Source: Megamerina dolium (taxonomy: Eukaryota; Arthropoda; Insecta; Diptera; Megamerinidae). From it: DNA of 64,000 bases. The DNA is taken from positions 14,978,220 to 15,042,219 of the forward strand of contig OY978530.1 of assembly GCA_963854835.1 (NCBI GenBank), read 5' to 3'. The position numbers and the translations under genes were made by a program. The notes below the pieces were generated by a model. The model did no database searches. It was not told the origin of the DNA and saw nothing but the letters and a program-made list of their open reading frames with translations. Positions 6,130-46,046 of the stretch are shown piece after piece. Positions within the stretch are counted from its first letter, which is position 1. Every line of letters begins with the position of its first letter.

Positions 6130-6465
<336 letters not shown>

Positions 6466-6469
6466 TAGG

Positions 6470-7593
6470 GATTAGCCGAATCAGACCACTTATCTGGGTA
6501 CCTTTTCGTTCCTCAAATCTTGTGTTAATTATTTGTTTGGTTGCAGAATTCTTCTACCTCCTTCATCATAATAAAATCACGCGTCTCTGTGGGGTATGTT
6601 CCACATTTCAAGTTCATCAATAAATTGGCGACCCAGTGTGGGCATCCTTCTGCTTGCCAATGCAGGACTCTCGCACGCTATGCGCTGTTGTCTCTGCCTC
6701 TTCCATGAATAATCTGCAAATATCAGCATCCTCCCCTTCAACAAGACCCATCTTGTCGAGGTGGTACCTAAAATTGCAATGCCCAGTTATCCCGATTCAC
6801 TGCCCTTTGATAGCCTCAACGAAGCCTTTACCTGTCTACAAGTGGATAAGTTCTCCCATCTAGTCAGATGGAGTTCTTTTATCCACACTTTGACCTTTGC
6901 TTTCGCCGTCCCGTTGCACCTCTCATGGTATTATAAATAAAGTCCAGGAACTTACCGCTCACCGTTACCGCTATGTCATCTGCATACCCAACGGTGTGTA
7001 TGCCTTTAGAGTCCAGAAGCTGGAGTAGGGAATTCTCCGTGATGTTCCCAAGGATGGGCGATAGTACGCCTCTTGTGGACACCCTTTGACTACCCTACCT
7101 CTGAGTCTGTAACTCTAATTTTGAAAGTTTATTGCCCTTTTCCTCAGCATGCTGTCCATCCACCTTATAATGGATGGGCTGACTTCACGAGTAGCAAGGG
7201 CCATCTTTAGCATATCGAAACCTATCTTATCGAAGGCACCTTCTATATTCATAAAAGTAGACATAGATATCCCTCCACAAGACAGTTCTCCTTCCTCTAC
7301 GCGAACGAGTTCGTGGAGGGCCGTTTCAGTGGATTTGATAGCTCTGTATGCGTGCTGACACCTGCTCAGTGGTTTTGTCAGAAGCGTTGTCCTTTCCATG
7401 TAGTCCACCAGTACTCTCTGCATACATTTAAGCAGAAAGGAGGTCAAGCTAACCGTCCCGAAAGATTTAGCATCTGAGTAGTCCTTCTCTCCCGGCTTTG
7501 GAAGAAAGACAACCTTAGTCTCTCTCCATTGAGTAGGCATATACCTTGTAGCCAGACAAGTAGTGAATATTCCCAGAAGCCTGTCTACTAGAT
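6470..7593 (-). pseudogene. LINE fragment (RNase H-type LINE): RT core and C-terminal tail
   Basis: On the minus strand, 7540-7115 gives the RT fingers and palm (PTQWRETKVVFLPKPG, then SLTSFLLKCMQRVLVDY, then FMNIEGAFDKIGF). Bases 7082-6879 carry GVLSPIL and the catalytic YADD box. A deletion then removes the thumb and RNase H. The last part (6870-6550) is the C-terminal tail with CESPALASRRMPTLGRQF, typical of these LINEs. It appears to belong to the same broad family as the fragments at 1-1167 and 59838-61210. The copy is 5' truncated at about 7593 and has several breaks. Confidence 0.8.
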
Positions 7594-12315: not shown

Positions 12316-12753
12316 TGTTACGTTTTTATTCTGTGAACGTTTAATTCTATTTGAATTACCTTGTTCGATCACTGGATTCTGTTAATGATAACTGCAACAC
12401 TTATTTTATACAACTATATACAGCAACAATTTATTTAATAATCTCTATTTACAATCAACACTGTTTACAATCAACTATTTACTATAACACTTAAATGTAC
12501 TTGCAACTTTTGCCTCTGTATCAATGTTTTCGCAATCACGTTCGGAAGTAGATTGATTGTCAATTCTCAACACTGGCTCTATTTATACTCTGTTGGCAAC
12601 ACCCCAGAATCTTCCTTTATCGAGATTCTTCTCTTCCTTTCTCGTTGGCTTGTTCTGGTTATCGCTTATTTCTTTTTGTTGACATTCGTTTCGATGCTGC
12701 CAATAGAGTCAGTCACAATAGTGATGAGTAATCAACTATCGATACTCTTTACA
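12316..12753 (-). repeat. Gypsy-1 3' LTR
   Basis: 438 bp, tgttacg...tttaca on the plus strand (TG...CA ends), read on the minus strand as TGTAAAG...GTAACA. It reads the same as 17876-18313 throughout, by eye. Confidence 0.97.
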
Positions 12754-12791: not shown

Positions 12792-14275
12792 TTATACTTC
12801 CCCTCGATATGGCGCAAGTCGCTCCAAGTGCACTACTTTAAACTTTGCTCTTTTATTCCAGGCACGTTGAATGCGATACACTACGTCATTTATCTTTGCT
12901 ATAATCTCATATGGTCCTTCCCAATGAGTCTGTAGTTTAGGAGACAGGCCTTTCTTTCGTTGTGGATTATGAAGCATTACAAGCTCTCCTTCATAGAACC
13001 CTTTTGAATTTGCTTTCAAGTCATACCTGGCCTTCATCTTATCGCTTATCATCTGCGACCGCTCTCTGATGAACCGATGTACTTCATCCAACTGTTCCCG
13101 CTTTTCGCTAGTATAATTACCTTCGGTTGATCTCGTTGGTGTTACGACTCCAAATTTTAAATCAGCTGGCAGTCTTAACTCGTTTCCAAAAATTGCCATT
13201 GCCGGTGTAGTAGCCATCGTATCATGTTGTGCGCATCGATATGCCATGAGGAACATTGGTATATGTACATCCCAGTCTCTTTGGTATTTATCTACGACTT
13301 TTCTCAAATATTCCTCCAAGGTACGGTTAAATCGTTCTACCATGCCATCAGATTGTGGATGCAAAGGTGTTGTACGAGTTTTGTATATACCCAGCATACG
13401 GCATATCTCTTGGAATACAACTGATTCGAAATTTCGACCTTGGTCTGAGTGTAACTCCATCGGTACACCAAAACGAGTAACCCATTGGTTGACGAATACA
13501 TCCGCAACTGTACTAGCTTCCTGATTTGGAATGGGGTATACTTCAGGCCATTTACTGAAGTAATCTATAACCACCAGAACATACTTGTTTCCTGCGTTGC
13601 TTATTGGAAATGGCCCAGCTATGTCCATAGCAATTCGCTCAAATGGAGCACCCACGGTGTATTGGTGCATCTTACCACGACTTTTCTTAGTGGGACCTTT
13701 GGCCATTGCACATTGTTTACACTTCCGAATCCAATCAGCGACATGGTCATGACATCCAACCCAATAAAATCGTTTCTTTATTTTCTCGACGGTTTTGGTG
13801 ATTCCCAAATGCCCTCCACTGGAGGCATTGTGATACTCAGCTATCACTTCATTTATTCTTGCCTTGGGTACCACTAGCAGATCATAAGTGATTTTTCCAT
13901 CTTCGCTTTCCCATGTTCGGAATAAACATCCGTCTCGTAAGTGCAGGCTTTGCCACTGCGCCCAGTATGCCTTTGCTATTGGACTCTCATTAGCCATTTC
14001 TTGCCAATCTGGACGTATGCCCTGCTCCTTGTATTCCATAATCTTTACGAGATCTGGGTCGTTCCGCTGATCTTCTTGCACTCGTTCGGGGGTCCATGTC
14101 TCCTCCGGCAATATATTCGTAAGTCGTATGTCGACAATGTGCTCCTTGCTTTCCACTCGAGAACAATGTTTACATTCCATTTTGCAAGGACGACGAGATA
14201 GAGCATCCGCGTTGCCGTGATGTCCTCCTTTACGATGTTCGATGGTAAAATGATAACTCTGCAGCCTTTCAATCC
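12792..14275 (-). CDS. pol: Gypsy-1 integrase (C-terminal part of Pol)
   Basis: The frame runs from about 14275 (end of RNase H, DWIERLQSYHFTIEH) to the stop at 12792. Numbered from the Met at 14180, the zinc-binding HHCC is H117, H124, C154 and C157. The catalytic triad is D186, D246 and E282, with 35 residues between D246 and E282 as in DD35E integrases. A C-terminal GPY/F-like module has HWEGPYEII. It joins element DNA to the host chromosome. It should be continuous with the upstream RT frame, but a frame change of +1 (probably a small deletion in the NPEGQ..W region) separates them at about 14275. The Met at 14180 is not expected to be a natural start. Confidence 0.95.
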
Positions 14276-16368
14276 AGTCCTTCTGGGTTTTTAAATTGTA
14301 ATAACCACCTTAGCGCTGAGTGGTCAGTTCGTAGATGAAATGACTGACCGTACAAGTATTTATGGAAATACTTTACACATTCCAGTATTGCGAGCAACTC
14401 TCTTCGTGTGACACAGTAATTTCTTTCTGGCTTCGACAGGATTTTACTGTAGTATGCTATTACTTTTTCTTGCCCATCTATGATCTGAGAGAGCACACCA
14501 CCTATTCCATAGCCACTCGCATCTGTGTCCAACACAAACTTTTGACCAGGTACTGGATACGCTAATATTGGTGCTGAACAGAGTTTTTCTTTCAGCTGTT
14601 CGAATGCTTTCTGTTGGTCCTCGCCCCACACAAATGGTTTGTTCTTTCTTGTCAACTCATGCAGACTGCTGGCGATGTTTGCAAATCCAGGAACAAATCG
14701 TCTATAGTAGGTGCATAAGCCTAGGAAGCTCCTTAGCTCGTGAAGATTCGACGGAATAGGCCATTCTTGAACTGCTGCTACTTTCTCCTCGTCGGTATGT
14801 ACCCCTTCTGTTGTTACTTTATGACCAAGATATTTAACTTCTCGCCTGAAGAGTGAACACTTTTTCATATTCAGTTTAAGCCCTGCTGATTGTATACGCT
14901 CAAATACTTCTTTCAACTTTTCCAGGTGGTCGTTAAAATCTTTTCCCATCACAATAATGTCATCGAGGTACACCAAGCACGTTTTCCAGTGTAGTCCTCT
15001 GAGTACACGCTCCATCAAACGTTCAAAAGTAGCTGGCGCATTGCATAAGCCAAATGGCATAACTGTAAATTGCCATAGACCATCGCCAATACTGAAAGCT
15101 GTTTTCTCTTTGTCTTCCTTACCAAGTTCCACTTGCCAGTAGCCACTTTGCAAATCAAGAGTTGAGAACCACTTCGCACCAGATAGTGTGTCCAGAGTGT
15201 CATCGATTCTTGGCAGTGGATAGCTGTCTTTTTTCGTAATATCATTTAGCTTTCTGTAATCCACACAGAATCGAGTACTTCCATCCTTCTTCTTTACCAG
15301 CACAACTGGTGAACTCCATGGACTCGCTGATGGTTCAATAACACCTTGTTTCTGCATATCGGAAATCAGCTTAATGGCTTCGTCTCTTTTGGCCAATGGA
15401 ACTCGTCGTGGTGTTTGACGAATTGGTCTAGAATCACCGGTGTCAATGTGATGCTTCACGATGGTTGTTCGTCCTCCAGTTTTTCCATTTGAAGAAAAGA
15501 TTGAACTGTACTTCTCCAATAGTTGTAAAGCCTTTTCTTTTTGCTGGTTGGTAAGCCCGCCTGCCCATTCTTCCATCTGTGCTTTTATTTCCACTCTGAC
15601 AGTTCCTGATCTTCCACTTTTTATCGACGAACCCTTTTCGCAGTCTACTATGGCAGTAACTTCCTGGCAATGACCAATCACCATTCCTTTCTTCACAACT
15701 GTAGATGTATTAGTTGGATTTAAAATTCGCACCGGTACTATTCCATTTTCTTTAGGTTCTACTAACGTCCTACCAAGTATGATGTTTTTATTCGTTATTT
15801 CTTTATCTGCTTCCACCAGCCACAACTTGCCTGTCCCATCATCCACATTCATCTGTGCCCATATCACCGCTTCTGATTTTGCTGGAACCTCTTGGCGTTG
15901 ACATGCCAGTACTCGTTTGATGTTCCCACTACGCTTGTAACCGATGTTCAATGGTAGTTCGACATTTGCATAACGTAGTATCCGTTGATTCAAATCTAAC
16001 GTAAATCCGTTGTCAATCATAAAATCAACACCAATTATTACGTCATCGATGATGTCGGCCACAATGAATTCATGTTCCCATGTGCAATTTCCAATAGATA
16101 CTAGTTTCTTTATCTTACCCAGAATTTGTGCATCCTCACCCGTTGCTGTACGCAATTTTATTCCCATTAAAGGCTCAAACCTCTTTACCAAATCGCTCTT
16201 GATTATAGAATGTGATGCACCAGTGTCCAGGGTTAACATGAATTCCATATTGTCCAATTTTCCATCAATAGTCAAGCTGCTTGGCACACGCTGTAGTTGT
16301 GAAATGTGAATGATGGGGCAACCCACTGTTGGAGTCAGTTCACGCCCCGCTGAACTGACTCGATTTAG
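14269..16368 (-). CDS. pol: Gypsy-1 protease, reverse transcriptase and RNase H
   Basis: This frame is entered by -1 frameshifting from gag and lacks its own ATG; the first in-frame GTG is at 16326. Counting from that GTG, the protease active site DTGA is at 34-37. RT spans about 320-500, with the box FSTLDLQSGYWQ near 387-398, MPFGLCNAPATF near 423-434 and the catalytic YLDD at 453-456. RNase H carries D600, D602, E643 and D668. The frame ends prematurely at NPEGLD (14269), where the integrase frame continues one base over. The enzyme copies genomic RNA into DNA inside the virus-like particle. Apart from this lesion every catalytic residue I looked for is present. Confidence 0.97.
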   Translation of the reverse strand, partial: LNRVSSAGRELTPTVGCPIIHISQLQRVPSSLTIDGKLDNMEFMLTLDTGASHSIIKSDLVKRFEPLMGIKLRTATGEDAQILGKIKKLVSIGNCTWEHEFIVADIIDDVIIGVDFMIDNGFTLDLNQRILRYANVELPLNIGYKRSGNIKRVLACQRQEVPAKSEAVIWAQMNVDDGTGKLWLVEADKEITNKNIILGRTLVEPKENGIVPVRILNPTNTSTVVKKGMVIGHCQEVTAIVDCEKGSSIKSGRSGTVRVEIKAQMEEWAGGLTNQQKEKALQLLEKYSSIFSSNGKTGGRTTIVKHHIDTGDSRPIRQTPRRVPLAKRDEAIKLISDMQKQGVIEPSASPWSSPVVLVKKKDGSTRFCVDYRKLNDITKKDSYPLPRIDDTLDTLSGAKWFSTLDLQSGYWQVELGKEDKEKTAFSIGDGLWQFTVMPFGLCNAPATFERLMERVLRGLHWKTCLVYLDDIIVMGKDFNDHLEKLKEVFERIQSAGLKLNMKKCSLFRREVKYLGHKVTTEGVHTDEEKVAAVQEWPIPSNLHELRSFLGLCTYYRRFVPGFANIASSLHELTRKNKPFVWGEDQQKAFEQLKEKLCSAPILAYPVPGQKFVLDTDASGYGIGGVLSQIIDGQEKVIAYYSKILSKPERNYCVTRRELLAILECVKYFHKYLYGQSFHLRTDHSALRWLLQFKNPEGLD

Positions 16369-16374
16369 TTTAAC
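16315..16374 (-). promoter_or_regulatory. Candidate -1 programmed frameshift signal (slippery site plus pseudoknot)
   Basis: The minus strand has heptamer GTTAAAC at 16374-16368, phased G TTA AAC in the gag frame and followed directly by the gag stop TAA (16367-16365). After a 6-nt spacer comes a perfect 11-bp stem (16361-16351 with 16342-16332). Its 8-nt loop contains GGGGC (16348-16344), complementary to GCCCC at 16319-16315. This gives stem 2 of 5 bp, loop 1 of 2 nt and loop 2 of 12 nt. The -1 frame opens into protease-RT. The geometry follows known viral -1 frameshift pseudoknots; activity is inferred. Confidence 0.85.
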
Positions 16375-17846
16375 GATGGATTTGTGTTAGTGGAGCGATC
16401 GCTATCCACCTTATTCTCCTTCTTTTGTCTTCCTGGAGAATTGGATCTTGATCGCTTTCGTCGTAGATGGCAGTCACGCGCCATGTGTCCTGGTTTGTCA
16501 CAAATGAAGCACTTACCAGTAAACTTGTTTTCGCGTCGACCTGTTGTTCTTCCTTCAGGCTGAACTACTGATTTTACTGCCTGACGCACTACTTCAACCA
16601 GATCTGTTGTTTCTGTTTCTAATTGGCGTACCCGTGGCATTGGTCGACACATGAAACTGGCGGCTTCAAACGTCAAGGCACTACTGACTGTTTCGGCATA
16701 AGTATTCCTGGGTGACATGACTAGGGCACGCTTTGTCTCTCCATCACGTATGCCATCTATGAATGCCTCTATTTTGATTTTTTCGACGAACTCTTCCGAA
16801 TTACCGGAGAACGCTAGATGACATAAGCGCTCAATATCGGAAGCGAATTCCTGAAGGATCTCATTACTCCGTTGCACTCGCGATCTCAATTCCACTCGAT
16901 GTAATTGACTCTTGTATTCATTTCCATATTTTCGCTGGAGTGTGTCCATCAGTGACTGATAGCTACCACGATCTTTCTCTGGAATCATCTGTAACACCTC
17001 GGAAGCATTACCTTTTAATGCGACTATTAAAGCAGCAGTCTTGTCGCTATCATCCCATTGATTCTTCGACGCTGTTGTCTCGAATTGAAGCTTGAAGATA
17101 TTGAATGGCGTGCTTCCGTCAAATGTTGGTGACTTTAGTTTGATTGTACTTGAATCTCTAATCACTGATGTGGCTGGTCCATTTATTTTTAGTTGATTGA
17201 GTTCGTGCTGTAATTTCTCGAACTTATCTTCCCAGTCGTCGACATGTTCCTTCAGCTTATCATCCAACTCATCCACGTGTTCTTTCAGCTCTGTGACTTT
17301 GTCATTAATAGCTCCGGAAATTTCCTGAAATCTAAGTTCAATTCCTTTTTGTAGATTTTCGATGACGTGTTCTTGGCGAGCCGAATGTTCTTGAAACTTG
17401 TAGTCAATTGTTTTCTGGAATTCTCCCATAGCGTTTTCTTGGCGGGACGAACCTTCTTGAATTTTCATACGCAATTCAGCCGAATGTTCTTGAAGCTTGG
17501 AGTCAATGCGAGACGCATTTCCTTGAATTTCCGTACGTAATTCAGCCGAATGTTCTTGTAACTTCGCATTAATTCCTTGCAGTTGCTGCTGCTGCTGTTG
17601 CATCATGGATTTCATAAATTCCATGAGTTGACCACTCGAATCTACCTTGCTCTCTTCCTCGGCGTGCACAACTGCATGTATATCGTCTTCCTCAAAGAAC
17701 TCATGTTCTTCTACATTAATTCCCTTAGCCTCCATGGCTTTCCTCAGCCTCACCAGCAGTTCCGCCTTTGCACCTGATGACGATAGATTCATCTCTACCA
17801 ACAGCTTTTTAAGCTGGTCCACTTTTAGTTGGTCAATTTTCACCAT
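16365..17846 (-). CDS. gag: Gypsy-1 Gag (SAP-like motif, coiled coil, capsid, zinc knuckle)
   Basis: 493 residues from the ATG at 17846, about 10 nt after the PBS. Residues 5-40 resemble a SAP motif (QLKKLLVEMNLSSSGAKAEL). Residues 83-88 are polyGln. Residues 90-220 form a long predicted coiled coil with three EHSA repeats (LQEHSAELR twice, then FQEHSARQE) and several EHVD-type units. Residues 235-400 match a retrotransposon capsid (KAALIV-like core, RKYGNEYKSQL). One CCHC zinc knuckle is at C446, C449, H454 and C459, and the tail is basic. It would assemble the particle and package RNA. The frame is fully open, and its stop overlaps the frameshift region. The SAP call is by eye. Confidence 0.95.
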   Translation of the reverse strand: MVKIDQLKVDQLKKLLVEMNLSSSGAKAELLVRLRKAMEAKGINVEEHEFFEEDDIHAVVHAEEESKVDSSGQLMEFMKSMMQQQQQQLQGINAKLQEHSAELRTEIQGNASRIDSKLQEHSAELRMKIQEGSSRQENAMGEFQKTIDYKFQEHSARQEHVIENLQKGIELRFQEISGAINDKVTELKEHVDELDDKLKEHVDDWEDKFEKLQHELNQLKINGPATSVIRDSSTIKLKSPTFDGSTPFNIFKLQFETTASKNQWDDSDKTAALIVALKGNASEVLQMIPEKDRGSYQSLMDTLQRKYGNEYKSQLHRVELRSRVQRSNEILQEFASDIERLCHLAFSGNSEEFVEKIKIEAFIDGIRDGETKRALVMSPRNTYAETVSSALTFEAASFMCRPMPRVRQLETETTDLVEVVRQAVKSVVQPEGRTTGRRENKFTGKCFICDKPGHMARDCHLRRKRSRSNSPGRQKKENKVDSDRSTNTNPSLN

Positions 17847-17855
17847 CTTTACAGA

Positions 17856-17873
17856 ATCCCACTTCTGACACCA
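17856..17873 (-). other. Gypsy-1 primer-binding site
   Basis: The minus strand reads TGGTGTCAGAAGTGGGAT starting 2 nt after the 5' LTR. It is complementary to a tRNA 3' end ATCCCACTTCTGACACCA, probably a leucine tRNA (from memory). Confidence 0.8.
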
Positions 17874-17875
17874 AT

Positions 17876-18313
17876 TGTTACGTTTTTATTCTGTGAACGT
17901 TTAATTCTATTTGAATTACCTTGTTCGATCACTGGATTCTGTTAATGATAACTGCAACACTTATTTTATACAACTATATACAGCAACAATTTATTTAATA
18001 ATCTCTATTTACAATCAACACTGTTTACAATCAACTATTTACTATAACACTTAAATGTACTTGCAACTTTTGCCTCTGTATCAATGTTTTCGCAATCACG
18101 TTCGGAAGTAGATTGATTGTCAATTCTCAACACTGGCTCTATTTATACTCTGTTGGCAACACCCCAGAATCTTCCTTTATCGAGATTCTTCTCTTCCTTT
18201 CTCGTTGGCTTGTTCTGGTTATCGCTTATTTCTTTTTGTTGACATTCGTTTCGATGCTGCCAATAGAGTCAGTCACAATAGTGATGAGTAATCAACTATC
18301 GATACTCTTTACA
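17876..18313 (-). repeat. Gypsy-1 5' LTR
   Basis: 438 bp, with the same sequence as 12316-12753. On the minus strand it contains a TATA box TATAAATAG (18147-18139) and a polyadenylation hexamer AATAAA at 17995-17990. Confidence 0.97.
18139..18147 (-). promoter_or_regulatory. TATA box in Gypsy-1 5' LTR
   Basis: TATAAATAG on the minus strand, about 165 bp into the LTR. It is suitably placed to start the genomic RNA near 18110. Confidence 0.7.
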
Positions 18314-21811: not shown

Positions 21812-22456
21812 ATGTTACGTTCACCAACAAATACTGATGGAGGTGATTCTAACATTAGACCTCTTATAGATATGGGTCCAGAGGTAAACATTATATACTT
21901 ACCCAATCCGTTTAGTCATAGACCAGACCTTGAAGCAAATTCAGTGAAGTTACCACAATTTTGGCAAAATTGCCCAGAAGCATGGTTCATCCATGTAGAG
22001 ACACAGTTCTCAACAAAAAAAATAACTCGTGACATTACAAAATATGAGTATGTCATAACTGCATTACCGCAGGAAATTATATCGAACGTACTCGATATAA
22101 TTCAAAACCCACCAGAAAATGACAAATACGGAAATTTAAAGAAAGCCTTGATAGATAGGCACTCTCTAAACGAACAACGTAAGTTAGACAGAATCTTAAG
22201 TGATTCTGAAATATGAGATCGTAGACCTTCAGAATACTACAGATCATTATAATTATTAGCTGGGAATTCTATTGACAATGATTTCTTAACAAAACTATGG
22301 CTAAGAAAATTACCAAGGAATTTATATGTGGCTCTTGCAGGAGCAAATACACATAATACCACGGAGTTATTACGTCTAGCAGATACTATTTGGGAAGCAA
22401 CTTGTGGACGCGAGGTATTTTCTATTAAAAATAACGAAAATACATTCAACGTATAG
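21812..22456 (+). pseudogene. gag: Gypsy-2 gag remnant
   Basis: The ATG at 21812 opens 134 residues containing VKLPQFWQNCPEAWFIHVET, the capsid entry of gag proteins in this group. After a stop at 22214-22216 the capsid continues in another frame: NDFLTKLWLRKLPRNLYVAL and TELLRLADTIWEATCGR. No zinc knuckle is seen. It would form particles; it is inactivated here by a stop and a frame change. Confidence 0.75.
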
Positions 22457-22524
22457 TTGAAAAAGTAGTTGAAAATCTAAAGAAAGTTACTTCAACTATA
22501 TGTGAACAATTCTAGAAATTACAA

Positions 22525-23960
22525 TTGGACATTTGTGAACGTAAAGGACAAATAAATTACAGTAATCGAAATCCCAAAAATCACTCTCACGAAATTGGAT
22601 CTGTCACTACCTTTATAAATTTGGTGATAAAGCACGAAAATGCGAACAACCGTGTGCTTATGGCGACAGACAATGGAAACTTAGAATATTCTACTCGTCG
22701 CCTATTCATTAACGATAAGACAAATAAATTAACCTTTTTAATAGATAGTGGAGCTGAAATTTCAGTTCTACCAGCATCAAAATTCAGAAGCTATAAGAGA
22801 TCGTCAGATATTATTTTAACTGCAGCAAACGGCACTCATATTTCAACTTACGGCAAAAAAAATTTTAAATATAAATTTAGGGTTACGAAGTGAATTTCCT
22901 TTCACATTTCTTATCGCTGATATAACAAAACCTATAATTGGTGCTGATTTTCTAGAAAAATACGGATTGTTAGTAGATGTTAAACATAAACGTTTAATTG
23001 ATAATATAACAACTTTATCAGTCAGTGCAATATCAAGTTATTGCAATATTCCTTCACCTAAAATATTTTGGGTAGATAACAAGTACACAGAACTTTTAAA
23101 GAAATTTCCAAATTTAATCGCAGAACCAGATTATAACAAACACGTTAATCATTCGACAATCCACCATAGAAGGGCCTCTTTCATTCTGCAGACCAAGACG
23201 TCTCGATCCTATTAAATATAAAATTGTAAAGTCAGAATTTGAAATGTTAGTTAGAACAGGCGTTTGTCGTCCTTAGTACCAAAAAAAAGAACCAAATGAC
23301 TGGAGACCTTGTGGAGATTATAGAAGATTAAATTTAATCAAGGTATCTGACCGATATCCATTACCACATATTCATGATTTACATATAGATTTTCAAGATA
23401 AACATATATTTTCCAAAATTGATCTAGTACGTGCTTACCACCAAATTCCGGTTTCAGAAGAAGACGTACATACGACTTCTATTACAACCCCTTTTGGAAT
23501 GTTCGAATTTACAAGAATATCTTTTGGTTTACGTAATTCTGCACATATATTCCAAAGTTTTATTAACGAAGTTACACAAAATTTTGATTTTACATTCGCA
23601 TATTTGGATGACATTTTGATCGGAAGTAATTTTGAATCAGAACATTTGCAACATTTAACTATACTTTTCAAACAGTTAAATAAATACGGTTTAAACATGT
23701 AAAATGTATTTTCGGAGTCGAAAACCTTGACTTTCTAGGATTTCTAGCGTTGGAATTTGTCCATCTGATGAAAAAGTCAAAATAATTAATTTTGGTAAAC
23801 CAACATCGGTCAAACAACTTCAGAAATTTATCGGAATGGTAAATTACTATCATAGGTATATACCAAAGTTAGCCGAATTACTCAATCCATTACATGACAT
23901 GCTTACAAAACCTACAAAAAAATAAAACAAAAGTGCTAGAATGGACAGATAAAACAACAC
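22525..23960 (+). pseudogene. pol: Gypsy-2 protease and reverse transcriptase remnant
   Basis: The protease at about 22735-22900 has FLIDSGAEISVLPASKF (active-site DSG). After a frameshift the RT begins at about 23175 with PRRLDP-type sequence, then DWRPCGDYRRLNLI (23300) and the palm entry FSKIDLVRAYHQIPV (about 23410). It continues with TPFGMFEFTRISFGLRNSA (about 23488) and the catalytic YLDD (about 23600). The connection LQKFIGMVNYYHRYIPKLAE follows near 23820. Several stops and frame changes occur, although the catalytic box is preserved. Confidence 0.8.
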
Positions 23961-23969
23961 AACTTTTTG

Positions 23970-24536
23970 AAGCTGTAAAAGATAATTTTGCTCAATCATT
24001 TCAAGAGTAAAGCAAAATTATCAGTTACAACAGACTCTTCAAATATCGCTATCGCTGGTGTTCTGCAACAAGAATTCAAAGGACGTAAAGAACCGTTAGC
24101 GTTTTTCTCAAAAAAGCTCAATCCATCTGAATACAAATATAGTACATTCGATAAAGAGCTATTAGCCATTTATTTGACGATAAAACATTTTCAACATTGG
24201 TTAGAAGGTCAGAATTTTACGGTATTTACAGACCACAAACCATTAATATTTGCTCTAAATTCAAAAACTGAGCGTAGTCCTCGACAAACAAGACATTTGG
24301 AATATATCTCACAATTTACAAACGATATACAACACATTCGTGGTGAATCAAATATAATTGCGGATACACTTTCTAGAGACCCAGGTATAGCAGTTTTAGA
24401 AACAGATGATATTAATTTACAAACTTTATATCAGCAACAACAGAATGACGAAGAATTGAAATCACTTATTACAGACACAAACAGTAGGTATAAACTTAAA
24501 TTAATCAAAATTCCTTCAAATCGAGATTTGGTGTGA
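23970..24536 (+). pseudogene. pol: Gypsy-2 RNase H
   Basis: Bases 23988-24536 form one open frame. It contains TTDSSNIAIAGVLQQEFKG, then EYKYSTFDKELLAIYL, FTDHKPLIFAL, and IRGESNIIADTLSRDPG. All four RNase H acidic positions are visible. It is followed by a frame change into integrase at 24533. Confidence 0.8.
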
Positions 24537-25272
24537 GATCACATGGTGGAGTAAAAGGTACCCGTCATTTGATATCAAATAGATATTTCTGGCCTGGAAT
24601 AATTAAAATGGTTAATCAATGGACAAAAGAGTGCATAAATTGTCAGAAATCGAAAATTAATAAACACACCAAGTCTCCGATCACAAAAATCCCGATTCCA
24701 AAAGGAAGATTTGAACACATACATATTGATATTGTCGGTCTTTTACCTTCTTCAAATGGCTATCGTTACTTACTAACCCTTATTGATAGAAATACACGGT
24801 GGCCAGAAGTATATCCAATTAAAGATATATCAGTAACTAGTGTTTCTGAAATGTTTTTCCGTGAATATGTTCCTGGTTCTAGAGTACCACTTAATATAAC
24901 TAGTGATCAAGGTACACAATTCATATCTAAACTATTTACGGGGTTGACAAAATTTTTAGGTACTCATAAAATAGTTACTACTCCATATCATCCTCAATCT
25001 AATGGAATGATTGAACGTTTTCACAGACAGTTGAAATCATCAATAATAGTCAAAGACAATAACGTTAGATGGTACGATGAGTACGATGATACTTTTAGGG
25101 TTACGATCTGCTTTTAAGGAAGATAATAATTCAACTGCATCTGAAATGGTTTATGGACAAAGTTTAAGACTACCATGTCAGTTAGTTGTTGAAACAGAAC
25201 AAAATTTTGATCCAATTGATACATTAGCTAGATTTAAGGATAATTTTCGTAACAGTCGTTCAAATATTGGGT
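24533..25272 (+). pseudogene. pol: Gypsy-2 integrase (zinc finger and catalytic core)
   Basis: It reads HGGVKGTRHLISNRYFWPGI and CINCQKSKIN (HHCC), then HIDIVGLLPSSNGYRYLL (first Asp) and NITSDQGTQFISKLF (second Asp). Next comes HPQSNGMIERFHRQLKSS (Glu). After a frame change at about 25090, the frame shows ALRSAFKEDNNSTASEMVYG. The C-terminal part lies beyond an inserted DD41D element, at 26150-26487. Confidence 0.85.
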
Positions 25273-27710: not shown

Positions 27711-28965
27711 CAACGCCTACGCCTCCGACGCCAATGGTGCCGGAAGTGCTGTAAGCAGTTCTACGACCAGAAAAGCAGCATGTGCGTCGGAGACTCAAAC
27801 GGTGAAAACCGCTCAGGTGAACGGATCCCCTAGATTAGAGCTAATTCTCAAGATGAGAGTTCTTGAAGAGGATTCCTTTGCGAAATGCAAAGGAAAGACG
27901 TGAAAGACGGAGTATCCGAACTAAGCGAACTGTTTGACGTAATAGAAAGTTATAGGAAGAGCTGGAAGGCGACAGAAGTAGAAAAAGAGAAAGAGCGGGA
28001 AGTTAAAGCTTCTCGCTTAACTAATACAAAAGTAGCCGATGATAGTACGCCGTTAACATGCCTTAACAAACGCGTCGCAACAAGCCCTGTTGTTCCCGAA
28101 TCCGGCAAGAAGACAAGGTCCAAAGAGCCAGAAGGTTGGTTGACGGTAAACCGAAGAAAGCCGAGATCTAAAGAACCGAAAACGGTGTGTAGTGGTACTC
28201 CAGCACTAAAAGAGGGCGACAAAAAGAAGCAAGTTGTGGTAAATAAGAGCAAACCCAAGATACTGAGGGATCGCCCAGAAGCTGTACTTGTGAAGCCGGC
28301 AGAAGGTACCAGTTAAGCGGAAATTCTTAGAGACCTCCGTCAGAAGGTAAAACCAGAAGAAGCTGAAATCGCAATACGTTGTGTTAAGAAGACAAGAGAT
28401 GGATCCATACTACTAGAGCTTGCAAAAGGAGGGAAGAAAGAACAGTTCTGCGAAGCAATAAAAAACTCGTTGAAAGACACCGCGACGGTGAAAGATCTCA
28501 AAACGAGGGCCACTATCGAGATTCGAGATTTAGATTCGTTCACGGACTCAGAGGAGGTTTGCGCAGCAGTTAGAGAAGCCAGAGGAAGAAGTTGGAGTCC
28601 GGTTGACAAAAGCAAACAGTAGGGAACAATGTCGTGCGTTTGTGACTTTGTCAGTAGAAGCAGCAAATATCATCCTTAAAACACAACGCATAAAGATTGG
28701 ATGGGCCAGATGTAGGGGGAAACAGCTGGATGAAATTAAACGCTGTTATAGATGCTTCGGGTCTGGCCACCTCCAAGCAGACTGTAATTGGCCAGATAGG
28801 AAAGGCCAGGGGTTATGCATACGTTGCGGAGAAAGCGGACACATGATACGAGATTGCATAAATCCCCCAAAATGCTGTCTCTGCGCACATGAAAATTTTA
28901 AGGAGCTAAATCATATACCAGGTACGAGCAAATGTGCGGCTTATAAGAAACCAGCGAAGAGATGA
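27711..28965 (+). pseudogene. R1-clade LINE ORF1 (Gag-like, triple zinc knuckle)
   Basis: The coding sequence begins right after the (ATT)n array (NAYASDANGAGSAVSS), shifts frame at about 27890 and has a stop at 28314-28316. It continues with a region rich in charged residues and shifts again near 28610. The C-terminal part has CYRCFGSGHLQADC and CIRCGESGHMIRDC (both CX2CX4HX4C), followed by a third Cys-rich unit, CCLCAHENF. Such ORF1 proteins bind the element RNA and direct it to the nucleus. The stop codon overlaps the ORF2 start as ATGA (28962-28965). Confidence 0.85.
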
Positions 28966-31875
28966 TGAAGATACTTCAAGCAAACCTACATAGAAGTAAA
29001 ACAGCTGATGCGCTTTTTCCTCAGATAGTCGCAGAACATGAAGTTGATGTGGTGATTATCAGTGAGCAATACAAGAAAATTGAAAGCGGAACATGGCTTG
29101 AAAATGACGCGTCAACAGCAGCCATTTGGATACCTATAACCAGCAGCATTCAGGTCACTGACAGCGGCAGAGGATCTTGTTACGTTTATGTACGTATTAA
29201 GAGTGTTACATTGGTGAGCTGTTATCTTACTCCGAGCGATGATATAATGACCTTCCAGGATAAACTGAATGACATCGAAGACAAGGCTCTAGAACTCGAA
29301 GGAGCTTTAGTTGTAGTAGGTGATTTTAACTCCCGTGCTCCGGAGTGGGGTATGCCAACGATGGACGCCCGAGGTCGTAGGGTAGTGGACATGGCTTCAA
29401 GGCTTAGCCTTATTGCTATAAACACGGGCACAGCAAGGACGTTTAGACGGCCAGGCTGCGAGAGCACCACACCAGACATAACGTTTGCTACAGAATCAAT
29501 AGCTGGGAAAATTATTTGCTGGAGGGTACTAGAGGATTTCACGGCCAGTGACCATCAGTACATCTCCTACTCTTATCAGTTTCAAGGCCAAAAAGATGCA
29601 CCAGTGGATGGCGTCAAAATACCGCACAAATGGAATGTGGATAGATTGAACAGAGACGTATTGGTTGACCAAACCCATGCCGCTAGGGAAATAGGTACTC
29701 AAACAATGAGCGCGATTAAAAAGGCTTGTGATGCTTCCATGCCGAAAACGGGATACAGGCGACACAAATCGGTATACTGGTGGAATGAAAAAGTTGCAAA
29801 ACTGAGACGAATCTGCCTGCAGTGTAGACGCATTCTAACAAGGGCCAGACGTAGAGAAAACTTTATTATAGAGCGTGCAGCATACAAGAATGCAAAGGCA
29901 GAACTCAAGTCTGCTATTTTCCGCAGCAAAAATGAAAAGTGGGCTGAACTATGCAAAGACGTAAACAACGATCCCTGGGGACTAGGATACAAAATCGTTA
30001 TGAAGAAACTAGGTAGCAAAGTTGTGACAAATGATATGGATGAAGAAACAATGGAGAATATAGTCTCGACCTTGTTTCCACAACATCCCTTACGGCCGGA
30101 GGATGCAGTTAGAGAACCAGGAGAAATTCTGCTTTTCAGCGAAGAAGGACTAGAATATGCAGCAAGTACGCTTAAAAATAAGAAGGCACCAGGCCCCGAC
30201 AAAATCCCAGGAGAAGTATTAAAGGAACTTGTACACCACCAGCCGCAGGTACGGTTAGATATGTACAACGCATGTCTCAAAGAAGGGATATTTCCAGAGG
30301 TGTGGAAGAACCAACAACTAATTCTGGTAAGCAAAGGCAAAGGTGACCCAATGACACCAGGTGCATATCGCCCACTCTGTATGCTTGATACAGCTGGGAA
30401 ATTATTAGAGAAGCTTCTTAAACCTCGTATCACAGCTGCATGGTTTTAGAAAAGGGTGGTCTACCGTGGGAGCGATTCAAGAAGTGGTGGAAGCAGCCTC
30501 GATAACAAAAATAGGTAACCACTATTCTAGACCAGTAGTCTTGCTAACGACCCTAGATGTTAGAAACGCGTTCAACAGCGTGAAATGGTCGGACATGATA
30601 GAAGCCTTAGAACAACGCTTCCGGATACCTGCATACTTGAGTAGAATGATACGCAGCTATTTATGTGACCGCGTACTCACATACAATACAAACGCTGGAC
30701 CAAAGATGAAAAAAATAACGGCTGGTGCAGCCCAAGGTTCAATCCTCGGTCCAGATCTCTGGAATATAAGTTACGAAATACTACGCATAGAAATGCCAGA
30801 CGATACATTCCTAGTGGGCTTTGCAGATGATATAGCAGCTGTTATAACTGCGAGAAATACAGTAGAAGCACAACGAAAACTCAATCAGGTGATAATACGC
30901 ACGCAAGGATGGCTAAATTCCGACGGACTTCAGTTAGCAACGCAGAAAACTAAACTGCTGCTCATAACGGGGCGTCAAATTCCTTTGGAGGTAGATATGT
31001 ACATAAACGACGAACAAATAACTACACAGAAGGTGGTTAAATATCTAGGAGTTAGATTGGACTCCAAGCTCACATATACGGCACAATTGCAGTATGCTAC
31101 AAACAAAGCAGCTAAAGTTACAGCATCAGTAAGCAGACTGATGGCAAACATCGGTGGACCGTTGCCTAGCAAGCGTAAAGTCTTAATGGCGGTAAACCAT
31201 TCCATCCTACTATATGGATGTGAACTATGGGCCGACACACTCAAAACGGGTTGCAGAAGGAAAATTATATCAGCTGTACGAAGGACTATGGCCCTACGAA
31301 TAACATGTGCCTATCGCACAGTGTCGTATAGTGCGGTGCTGGCAATAGCGGGTGTAACACCAATTGACCTGCTAGCAGAAGAGCGAAAAAAGTTGTACCT
31401 ACTAAAAAAATCTGGAGGCTATACACCACAAGCTGAAAAGCAAATAAGAGAGCAGACAATTAATATCTGGCAAGAGAAATGGGAGAACCACACGTATGGC
31501 AGATGGACCATAAAAATTATACCAAGCATATGTGAATGGATTGGGCGAAGACACGGAGAGGTTAATTATTACCTAACCCAGTTGTTATCTGGCCACGGCT
31601 ATTTCTGTAAATATTTACATAGAATAGGAAAGAGAGCGCATGCCAGATGCGTATACGATGATGCGGAAGAAGACGACGTAGAGCATAATTTCTTCAGTTG
31701 CGAAAGATGGAGTAATGAAAGGAGCGTAATGGAGCAGCAAATCGGGTTATGGACAGTTGAAAACCTGGTCGAAAAACTGTTACACAGCGAAGAAAACTGG
31801 AACGCTATTTCGCGGTATACGGAATGCGTACTCAGAAGAAAGAAGCGGGACCTGGACGCAGGTCAAAACGAGTGA
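28962..31875 (+). pseudogene. R1-clade LINE ORF2 (endonuclease-reverse transcriptase)
   Basis: The start ATG at 28962 overlaps the ORF1 stop. The endonuclease domain occupies about residues 1-220 (MKILQANLHRSKTADAL, then IISEQYKK, GDFNSRAPEWG, TPDITFA, SDHQYISYS). RT motifs begin with LKNKKAPGPDKIPGEVLKE (about 30172). At about 30440 a small deletion shifts the frame: KPRIT runs into HGFRKGWSTVGAIQEV, and the second frame is open at 30466-31875. The catalytic FADDIAAV is near 30820. The C-terminus has a CVYDDAEEDDVEHNFFSC motif of the CCHC type. The protein would nick the target and copy RNA there. Confidence 0.92.
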
Positions 31876-33450: not shown

Positions 33451-34693
33451 CGAGGGCGGATTGATAATAAAGCTACCTAAGTAGGAAAAAAACATTTTGT
33501 TTTTTTCAAAAACCATTTATTTCTCAACATAGTCTCCTTTTACTTTGACACACTTAGTAAGACGATATACCAACTTTTTTATACCATCTGAATAATACGA
33601 TTTCGGGAACCCCTCAGAATACGCGTTAATTTCGGTAATCACTTCTTCGTTTGAGCTGAATCTTTTTTCTGCGAACCATTTTTTCAAGTTTGGAAACAGG
33701 AAAAAGTCACTTGGAGCTAAATCTGGACTATAAGGTAGATGATCAACCAATTCGAAGTGTATTTCACGTAATTTTAGCATCGTATCTAATGCTGTGTGAA
33801 CCGGTGCGTTGTCTTGAAGAAAGAGTATTTTTTTCTTCTTTAAATGTGGTCGTTTTTTCTTGATTGCATCATTCAATTGATCCAATAATGCACGATAATA
33901 CTTTCCTGTGATTTTGGATCCTTTTTCAAGATAATCGATAAGCAATATTCCGAGTGCATCCCGAAATACGGTGGCCATAACCTTGCCAACCGATTTCACT
34001 GCCTTCGCCTGCTTCAGAGCACTTCCACCAGCTTCCACCCATTGCTTCGATTGACCTTTGGTTTCAGGTGTGTAGTGGTGGACCCACGTTTCATCAACAG
34101 TTACTAATCGACGCCAAAAATCAACAGGATTACGCTTTATCATGTCCAAACACTGCTGTGAAGTGGTCTCTTGAACTCGTTTTGGTTCGACACTGAGCAA
34201 ACGCGGCACCCATCTTGCCGATAGCTTTTTCATATGCAAATGTTCATGCAAAATGTTGAACACACGTTCATATGAGATGTTTACCATTTCAGCAATCTCA
34301 CGCCACTTGACTCGGCGATCATTCATAACGATATCGAGGATTTTCTTGATGTTTTCTTCAGTAACCACCTCTTTTGGCCTTCCTGTTGATGGTATTGTTG
34401 CAGTGCTTGTTCGGCCGCGTTTAAATTCAGAAATCTACTGTAATGTTTATCGAGCTCTTCTTTTGTCTCTTTCGCCATTTTCCCCTTCAAATAATAGTGC
34501 CTAATCACTGCACGAAATTCGCTTTTTTCCATATTTCAAGAAACACAAAAGTTCGTTACTTCAAACGACTACAACAAGTAAACTAATCAATGAATTTGGG
34601 TGAAATTTTAACAGCTTTTTGAAATTTCAAAAAAAATAGTTTTTGTGTTTGTGCTGCCTTTTTCGTACTTAGGTAGCTTCTTTATCAATCCGC
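33451..34693 (-). mobile_element. mariner element 2 with terminal inverted repeats
   Basis: The left end follows TA (33449-33450) with CGAGGGCGGATTGATA. The left repeat (about 33456-33490) is matched by an inverted copy at 34660-34693, sharing GCGGATTGATA, CTACCTAAGTA and GAAAAA. The right end lacks the terminal CCCTCG and runs directly into another mariner. Inside is one minus-strand transposase pseudogene. Confidence 0.92.
33517..34532 (-). pseudogene. mariner transposase 2 (DD34D), one frame lesion
   Basis: It starts at the ATG at 34532 (MEKSEFRAVIRHYYLKGK), the first helix-turn-helix. Near 34437 a small deletion removes about a dozen residues and shifts frame, so the rest reads from about 34437 down (ISEFKRGRTSTATIPSTG, then 34368-33517). 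WREIAEMVNISYERVFNIL is the second helix-turn-helix. The linker has WVPRLLS. The catalytic Asps are in VDETWVHHY, LQDNAPVHT and SPDLAPSDFF, with exactly 34 residues between the last two. Total length would be near the usual 345 residues. The 283-residue frame is otherwise open. Confidence 0.95.
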
Positions 34694-35790
34694 TGTTTTT
34701 CGGTAAAAAACACATTTTTTTTCATAGAAAGCCAAAAATTAATTTATTCAAAGTATTTGCCCTTACTAGCTATAAAATTTTCCCATATCTCGGGCAATTT
34801 TTGTATACCATGCCAAAAGAATTCCTCATTTTTCGAGGCAAACCACTCGTCAAGCCATTTTCCGACATCTTCATACGAATCGAAGTGCTGTTCGGCGAGC
34901 GCGTGACCTATCGACGAAAACAGGTGATAGTCAGAAGGTGCCAGGTCTGGTGAAAACGCGGGATGAGGTAGCACCTCGCAATTGAGTGTGTCCAAGTAGT
35001 TTTGGACCAGTTTTGACGTGTGCAATGGGGCGTTGTCGTGGAGAAAAATCAGCTTCTCATGTCTTTGTTCATAACCAGGCCTTTTTTCTCCCAAAGCACG
35101 GCGCAATTTCACTAGTTGTTGATGGTAGCAGTGAGCATTGACAGTTTCTTCAGGTACCAACAGCTCGTAGTAGATGACACCCTGCTGATCCCACCAAACG
35201 AACGGCATCGTCTTTTGTCCAAAGCGATGTAGTCTTGGAGAAGAAGTTGCTGGTTGGCCGGGATCGACTAACGATTTTTTTCGTTTAGGATTCTCAAAGT
35301 ATATCCATTTTTCATCGCAAGTCACCACAATTTGCAGGAACGACTTTCTTTTTTGTCTAGCAAGCAAGATTTCGCATGTGTTTTGGCGTCGCTCCATCTG
35401 CCTATCGTTCAATTCATAAGGTACCCATTTTCCAAATTTTTGAACTTTTCCCATGGCTCATAAACGTATAGAAATGGCTTGTTGAGTAACACCTAACTGT
35501 TCGGCAAGAAATTTTTGCATTTGGGTGTCGTTCTCATCCAAAAGAGCCTGCAAATCATGGTCCTCAACTTTTCTGGGTCTATTTTCACGCTTCTTGTCAC
35601 TCAAGTTAAAATGGCCTTTTTTGAACCGACGAAACCAGTCTCTGCAAGTGGTTTCCGATAGCGCACTGTTTCCACGAGCATTCGATGCGACTCAGCAGCA
35701 AATTGAAACAAAAAAACAGAGCTTCCCGCATATGCTCTTTTTCTTACACGAAACTAGACATGATTTACGAGAAAAAATGTATGTTGTTGT
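34687..35790 (-). mobile_element. Mos1-like mariner, copy 1
   Basis: It begins at the remains of its terminal repeat (ATCCGCTGTTTTTCGG, 34688-34703), fused to the end of mariner 2. Beyond the transposase start region (about 35745) it runs into a (TA)-rich zone. No intact right terminal repeat was seen. Confidence 0.85.
34744..35745 (-). pseudogene. Mos1-like mariner transposase (mauritiana type), N-terminus frameshifted
   Basis: Bases 35454-34744 give 236 open residues. MGKVQKFGKWVPYELNDRQ is the linker, VTCDEKWIYFENPKRKKS has the first catalytic Asp, and FLHDNAPLHTSK the second. The third is in SPDLAPSDYHLF, with 34 residues between the last two, and ASKGKYFE ends the protein. The similarity to Mos1 extends through the whole C-terminal half (from memory). 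The N-terminal DNA-binding part (35745-35455) is present in other frames with stops. The same family occurs at 45130-46128. Confidence 0.92.
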
Positions 35791-37144: not shown

Positions 37145-40027
<2,883 letters not shown>

Positions 40028-45129: not shown

Positions 45130-46046
45130 TGCCGAACAGTTAGGTGTTACTCAATAAGCCATTTCCATACGTTTACGAACGATGGGAAGGTTAAAAAATT
45201 TGGAAAATGTGTACCCCAGAATTGAATGATAGGTGGAGCGACGCCCAAACACTGGTGAAACTGTCAATGCTCATCGCTACCACCAACAACTAGTGAAATT
45301 GCGCCATGCTTTGGGAGAAAAAAGGCCTGGTTATGAACAAAGACATGAGAAGCTGATTTTTCTCCACGACAACGCCCCATTGCACACGGCAAAACTGGTC
45401 CAAAACTACTTGGACACACTCAATTGAGAGGTGCTACCTCATCCTGTGTATTCACCAGACCTGGCATCTTCTGACTATCACCTGTTTTCGTCGATGGGTC
45501 ACGCGCTCGCCGAACAGCACTTCGATTCGTATGAAGACGTCGGAAAATGGCTTGACGAGTGGTTTGCCTATAAAAATGAGGAATTCTTTTGGCATAAATA
45601 AAAAAAAAATAAATATGTGGCACTTAAAGCCCCAAAGGGCTCATTGGCCGAGCTTCTCTTCCATTACTGTTGTGCGTCTTAAATTTTGGACAGTATTAGA
45701 ATGGACCTACTTATTTTAGCCGGTTCCGAACGGCAGAACGCTTGTGACATCACTTTTTCTGAGCTTTGTCACAGAGTTCTTTTTAGAAGCTTTTTCATGG
45801 CAAGTTGTTACTGTCGTAAGAATTGCCAATTGCTTGCCGACAGGTGGGTACCGTTCGAAAGAAAAATCTTTTCGATATTAAATTTGTTATGCATCAGCCG
45901 GGTATTGAACCACGACCTACAGATCAGAAGGCGAACACACTAACCACTGAGCTACGGCAGTGCTTTGTATACCATGCTTTTGGCATGGTATACAAAAATT
46001 GCCCGAGATATGGGAAAATTTTATAGCTAGTGAGGGCAAATACTTT
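45130..46046 (+). pseudogene. Mos1-like transposase, copy 2
   Basis: The linker region (ATGGGAAGGTT onward) is degenerate. At 45233 MERRPNT joins directly to GETVNAHRYHQQLVKL, an internal deletion that removes the first catalytic Asp. FLHDNAPLHTAKLVQNYL is intact and is followed by a stop (45426-45428). SPDLASSDYHLFSSMG and DEWFAYKNEEFFWH come next. The SINE (45596-45959) follows, then IQKLPEIWENFIASEGKYFE to the stop near 46047. Confidence 0.88.
45596..45959 (-). mobile_element. tRNA-headed SINE, copy 11 (full length)
   Basis: A complete head, body and tail on the minus strand. The duplication cttttggcat occurs at 45586-45595 and again at 45977-45986. Between head and right copy are 17 extra bases that form a palindrome with the following mariner sequence. 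Confidence 0.93.

Follow-up and report, generated by a model that had tools for sequence, protein, structure and literature searches.

The gag-pol junction of an env-less Ty3/gypsy retrotransposon of the fly Megamerina dolium carries a slippery heptamer followed by a compact H-type pseudoknot, and ordinary -1 frameshifting driven by this pseudoknot is very likely the means by which the element makes Gag-Pol. The element lies in a window of 64,000 nucleotides, the whole stretch of DNA that was analysed. The sequence, the reading frames, the spacing, a pseudoknot potential above background, and the recurrence of this layout in two related elements, where the stems covary, were all observed directly. 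The junction pseudoknot appears to be real and is very probably functional, because the same arrangement, in different letters, is present in a moth element and in another that is more distant.

The element (called Gypsy-1 in the initial annotation, a name of that annotation's own making) occupies the minus strand. Its two LTRs of 438 bp (5' LTR, 17876..18313; 3' LTR, 12316..12753, with TG...CA ends) are 100% identical; 440 bp are common to both, of which 2 bases (AT) were judged to lie outside, and the LTR alignment output places ATAT on both sides of the element. The primer binding site, TGGTGTCAGAAGTGGGAT (17856..17873, minus strand), was read from the letters next to the 5' LTR, and we take it to be of the tRNA-Leu type. 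The gag gene (16365..17846, minus strand) encodes 493 aa with domain matches to SAP, Retrotrans_gag and one CCHC knuckle, and its product ends in SLN; the middle is coiled-coil-like, as judged by eye and from an apolipoprotein-type match. Starting at the heptamer, the -1 frame of pol (14269..16374, minus strand) encodes protease, reverse transcriptase and RNase H, and in the window copy this frame is broken at its end, between RNase H and integrase. The remainder of pol lies in another frame (12792..14180, minus strand), where open reading frames and domain matches define the integrase (H2C2, rve and p58 C-terminal). There is no space for env between the integrase, which ends at 12792, and the LTR. 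LTRs, gag and the order PR-RT-RH-IN, by which a Ty3/gypsy LTR retrotransposon is recognized, are all present. When the 500.5-Mb genome (8 contigs) was searched with the Pol of a relative, a 1201-aa open frame was found in all 39 of the best copies among 13,927 candidates, and in 35 of these 39 the match was free of stops, so intact copies exist.

The window also holds other repetitive DNA. Long AT-rich repeat arrays lie at 6132-6500 and 37145-37423, the first being an AT dinucleotide run. The plus strand carries fragments of a second gypsy-like element (21812-25117; DUF7041, RNase H and integrase) and an open reading frame of a non-LTR element of the endonuclease/reverse transcriptase type (28962-30449; PF14529), and two pieces of mariner-type transposase (PF01359) are found on the minus strand at 33517-35454.

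At the junction, the heptamer G TTA AAC (16368..16374, minus strand; letters and frame checked) lies in the gag frame and is followed immediately by the gag stop codon TAA (16365..16367), so placed that the gag reading frame ends ...SLN. The initial annotation had put a 6-nt spacer after the stop; the length is right, and the spacer, TAAATC (16367-16362), includes the stop codon. Stem 1 (S1) is formed by GAGTCAGTTCA (16351..16361, minus strand) and TGAACTGACTC (16332..16342, minus strand), whose 11 pairs are all Watson-Crick. Loop 1 (L1) is the dinucleotide GC (16349..16350, minus strand). Stem 2 (S2) joins GGGGC (16344..16348) to GCCCC (16315..16319), both on the minus strand, in five pairs, and it reaches 6 bp only if an optional G-U pair, G16343-U16320, is counted. 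Loop 2 (L2; 16320..16331, minus strand) is 12 nt long, or 11 if that pair forms. The -1 frame reads VKLNRVSSAGRELTP..., is open into the DTG protease, and runs past the heptamer as far as RNase H in the window copy. In each of these respects (heptamer and stop in the gag frame of the minus strand, perfect 11-bp stem, lengths of S2 and both loops, and open -1 frame into the protease) the earlier description was borne out by the letters. The sizes of the stems and loops are normal for frameshift signals.

We infer from this arrangement the folding of the RNA as a pseudoknot in the cell, as well as the occurrence of frameshifting and its rate. Most ribosomes would read TTA AAC TAA and terminate, yielding Gag. 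Some would pause once the pseudoknot has reached the mRNA entrance, when the heptamer occupies the P and A sites; their tRNAs would exchange pairing with TTA/AAC for pairing with GTT/AAA, and reading would go on in the -1 frame through protease, reverse transcriptase, RNase H and integrase. Gag-Pol would thus be the minor product. The same mode of Gag-Pol synthesis had been proposed in the initial annotation, and the covariation found in two related elements, described below, makes it the best explanation.

A pseudoknot of this quality is rare in the window. A scan of both strands of the 64 kb for at least 9+5 bp with at least 8 G-C pairs (L1 1-3, stem junction 0-1, L2 4-20) was passed by a single site in all, the gag-pol junction, in the form of three nested matches at that place. 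When the 2,598 slippery-like heptamers of the window were ranked by summed stacking energies, without any loop penalty and with AT-repeat stretches excluded, the junction (-36.1) came first, 12 kcal/mol ahead of the runner-up at -24.0. Two of 17,699 sampled positions reached -29 or lower, namely the junction itself (sampled two bases off) and one position at 45949. Fold, shuffles and window ranking agree that the structure 6 nt downstream of the heptamer is more stable than background. The 11+5 bp pseudoknot survived in none of 20,000 dinucleotide shuffles and in 71 of 20,000 synonymous recodings, for which the -1 frame and the codon usage of the element itself were used, and its native energy was matched by no recoding and no shuffle among 1,500 of each. 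Since recoding mostly loses the pseudoknot, the structure in the window is poorly explained by the amino acids alone. Rfam gave only four matches over the junction, all below their gathering scores and all on the opposite strand.

The initial annotation had suggested that other copies be aligned to look for covariation in both stems. A 301-nt junction query returned 40 scored copies, the best of 1,516 candidates, and three own-genome searches together fetched 68 loci, of which 58 contain a total of 59 junctions. All 16 pairs are retained in 55 of the 59, and one pair is broken in each of the other four (at L039, L045, L052 and L057). A common variant beside S2, T to G at 16320 in nine of the 59 junctions, abolishes the optional G-U pair and leaves GCCCC intact. 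Among 57 copies that could be aligned without gaps (46 distinct rows), the 42 sites of heptamer, S1, S2, L1 and stem junction have no shared variants and four private ones; 28 shared variants occur in 400 flanking sites (stretches of 120 nt in gag and 280 nt in protease), and the 60 nt that follow immediately downstream are likewise free of them. This own-genome conservation is weak evidence for the signal, because the copies are young, nearly identical and picked by similarity, and because the junction search required the heptamer (TTAAACTRR, together with a DTGA protease).

The ten loci lacking a junction are L024, L044, L059 and a group of seven (L012, L027, L033, L047, L055, L056 and L066) that proved to be deletion derivatives in which Gag is joined in frame to integrase. 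These derivatives have lost the frameshift signal, protease, reverse transcriptase and RNase H, three of the seven have two CCHC knuckles, and their integrase would be produced at the level of Gag. Open frames of 842-1015 aa in 19 of the 91 matches listed from the own-genome Gag search may be derivatives of the same kind. When a Bactrocera Gag and a second Gag were used as queries in the same genome, the 60 loci read were the family of the window element, whose candidates number in the thousands, and its deletion derivatives. Four Bactrocera dorsalis records (P0017, P0020, P0024 and P0034) have a Gag knuckle region fused, at a different breakpoint, to the end of RNase H and the integrase zinc domain; Gag-integrase derivatives may have originated more than once, and the B. 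dorsalis models may include annotation artefacts. Five Eurosta solidaginis records (P0003, P0010, P0022, P0072 and P0073) encode Gag and protease in a single frame and, of the integrase, the C-terminal domain only.

Stronger evidence comes from two elements found in records filed under bacteria. NZ_CP087956.1 (loci L094-L096) is filed as a complete Wolbachia plasmid from the moth Corcyra cephalonica; it encodes retropepsin, reverse transcriptase and RNase H, and by these genes it is a Ty3/gypsy retrotransposon, presumably of the moth host. Its match to the window Pol consists of four pieces that cover 91% of the query at 53% identity (30% for the protease part alone), and it is 34.5% identical to the window Gag over 47%. 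The gag frame of L094 looks broken upstream of the junction, which reads GTTAAAC TAA, with a spacer of 8, S1 arms GCCAGGGCC and GGCGCTGGC (nine positions, including one G-G mismatch), GC as L1, S2 of GGGGC/GCCCC, and a 12-nt L2. Its native score was matched by three of 1,500 recodings and none of 1,500 shuffles. The second element, L087, lies on a contig in a contaminated Limnohabitans MAG. Its junction reads GTTAAAC TAG, with a spacer of 6, an S1 of 10 bp, GC as L1, S2 of AAGGGC/GCCCTT, and a 20-nt L2, and its native score was matched by none of 1,500 recodings and none of 1,500 shuffles.

When the S1 arms are aligned from the loop, two-sided changes are found at three of nine shared positions between window and moth element and at six of nine between window and L087. 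Over the three elements, eight of nine S1 positions differ in this way in one or more of the comparisons, the 27 cells contain a single mismatch, and one of five shared S2 positions shows a two-sided change, in L087. This covariation is drawn from the DNA of three elements only, with most of the two-sided changes coming from the distantly related L087, and the register came from a shape-directed search that favours the shape, a bias that the per-element shuffles offset in part.

There is about an even chance that the L087 layout arose by convergence and not by common descent. The question bears on how old the signal is, and frameshifting fits either origin. Convergence is favoured by the limited protein similarity: Pol of L087 aligns with that of the window in RT/RNase H only (46% over 423 aa), the Gags align over just 29 residues (E 0.002), and a domain search found no SAP or CCHC match in the L087 Gag. 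Furthermore, a similar pseudoknot is present in nidoviruses. Against convergence, the two junctions share an identical heptamer, a near-identical spacer (TAAATC/TAGATC), an identical L1 (GC) and an identical S2 core (GGGC/GCCC).

Among loci L069-L094, seven contaminant loci have a -1 overlap resembling gag/pol, and three of these seven (L071, L074 and L076) have no in-frame heptamer of the type searched for, which speaks against a general rule. Three others are gypsy-like, with GGGAAAC in the overlap at L075 1351 and L081 1690 and AAAAAAC at L084 712, and with possible downstream structures that come from a wider search range without shuffles; the seventh is L087. No relatives turned up in IMG/VR, whether the query was the Gag, a relative's Pol, a Pol alignment or the Pol of L087, or in phage records.

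A simpler stimulator would be the S1 stem-loop alone, with the S2 pairing incidental. Folding without pseudoknots gives a stable S1 hairpin with two further pairs within its loop, followed by a second hairpin, for a total of -24 kcal/mol (z -2.87). The second hairpin, GUGGG/CCCAU, includes three nucleotides that belong to the S2 3' arm and could, according to this model, compete with S2; an extended S1 hairpin can also be drawn in L087. Related elements are described as using either stem-loops or pseudoknots, as in the IS elements covered in PMC5009743. The competing hairpin slightly lowers the odds of the pseudoknot reading and slightly raises those of the stem-loop. Even so, S2 consists of five G-C pairs in the window and of 5-6 bp at the equivalent place in both relatives, one two-sided S2 change has occurred in L087, and the variant at 16320 in nine junctions spares GCCCC. 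Stimulation by S1 alone is unlikely, and a pseudoknot containing both stems is preferred.

Protein databases extend the comparison to other insects. The nearest named relatives of the Gag include many from tephritid flies, and 35 of 81 Gag-type matches end in Leu-Asn, as TTA AAC before a stop would encode. They come from Bactrocera dorsalis, B. oleae, Zeugodacus, Ceratitis, Rhagoletis and Eurosta (five tephritid genera) and from other contigs. The LN dipeptide occurs in none of 2,065 places in the preceding 60 residues of these 35 proteins, and the residue before the terminal LN varies (S, P, A or Q), a variability to be expected if TTAAAC ahead of the stop is all that counts. The remaining 46 of 81 end otherwise, many being visibly partial or joined models (judged in bulk), and in P0028, P0060 and P0095 LN is located before the end of the protein.

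One B. dorsalis gene model, P0031, crosses the site in the -1 frame, reading ...VVKLKRNSSKGREL..., and this reading together with the zero-frame KSLN ending of other B. dorsalis copies fixes the DNA as GTTAAAY T(A/G)A, a deduction that combines two different copies. Judged one pair at a time, the P0031 peptide would allow 15 of the 16 window pairs, as would 20 of 20,000 residue shuffles; the peptide of a Carabus record, P0064, would allow 14 of 16, a value equalled by 27 of 20,000 shuffles. These compatibilities are not independent evidence, because the peptides are homologous. Indeed, the residues encoded by the pseudoknot are themselves conserved (SS-GREL--CP), so that protein constraint accounts for part of the conservation. 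That Pol is expressed by some other route, such as re-initiation or splicing, with the heptamer and stems as by-products of this coding constraint, is very improbable: the conserved residues and the single-frame Gag and protease of some Eurosta models (maybe real fusions or spliced models) speak for it, but Pol lies in -1, out of reach of plain stop read-through, synonymous recoding destroys most of the structure, and the Leu-Asn end is kept while the remaining gag tail varies.

Frameshifting at a pseudoknot thus stays the preferred reading, and the signal is likely shared within the clade and not peculiar to the window element. The initial annotation had considered such a pseudoknot unusual in insect Gypsy elements, a view that finds no support in view of the same layout in the moth element and the LN Gag ends in five tephritid genera. 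Searches of open-licence papers turned up no description of a conserved pseudoknot for gypsy elements of insects. A 2003 survey of animal LTR elements, as described in PMC5009743, placed pol in -1 in 28 of 51, many with heptamers. Among insect Ty3/gypsy lineages the window element may be close to Mdg3/Micropia: Mdg3 of Culex is listed at about 5.3 kb, with a Leu primer site and a 4-base target repeat (PMC3286476), and the window element has ATAT flanks, no space for env and a putative tRNA-Leu site. The word "frameshift" is absent from the main text of that source.

The signal likely works like the H-type frameshift signals of nidoviruses and retroviruses. The use of GUUAAAC by some nidoviruses, as stated in the initial annotation, is confirmed by Table 1 of PMC3835772, where equine arteritis virus has the identical heptamer, with a spacer of 5, an S1 of 10 and an L1 of 2; it differs in its S2 of 7 bp and L2 of 58 nt, and is an unrelated RNA virus. 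The layout had been likened to that of the coronavirus IBV, and S1 (11) and spacer (6) do agree, but of the two viruses tabulated there Berne torovirus (spacer 5, S1 11, S2 6, L1 2, L2 10) comes nearer in geometry than IBV does (spacer 6, S1 11, S2 7, L1 1, L2 32). Both viruses resemble the window signal in a spacer of 5-6, an S1 of 11 bp and an L1 of 1-2 nt, and their S2 is 6-7 bp long; they differ in having the heptamer UUUAAAC, where the window has GUUAAAC, other genes and no known homology, and IBV also in its 32-nt L2 (PMC3835772). The same source gives 6-9 nt as the typical spacing between heptamer and structure and defines the CPK-1 type of H-type pseudoknot by an L1 of 1-2 nt, an S2 of 6-7 bp and no L3; the 2-nt L1 of the window is within that L1 range, and its S2 would reach 6 bp with the G16343-U16320 pair, which nine of the 59 junctions lose. 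Closer to home, the Ty3/gypsy-derived mammalian genes PEG10 (with a pseudoknot) and PNMA3/Ma3 (with a heptamer and a classical H-type pseudoknot) are described as using frameshifting in PMC5009743; these are domesticated host genes, whereas the window element is a high-copy retrotransposon.

It is possible, though we propose it only tentatively, that animal Ty3/gypsy elements have inherited from far back, as one module, GTTAAAC with a stop codon and, behind it, a compact H-type pseudoknot whose 2-nt L1 is GC. If so, the fly, the moth and a more distant lineage would each have come to spell S1 differently within an unchanged architecture, and the module would be the retrotransposon counterpart of the torovirus/coronavirus signal. 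A covarying pseudoknot behind a heptamer would give a very abundant family of insect elements a defined signal for control of Gag:Gag-Pol. It makes a nidovirus-like pseudoknot from a retrotransposon available for ribosome studies, and it suggests a role in mobile gypsy elements, too, for pseudoknots resembling those of PEG10 and PNMA3.
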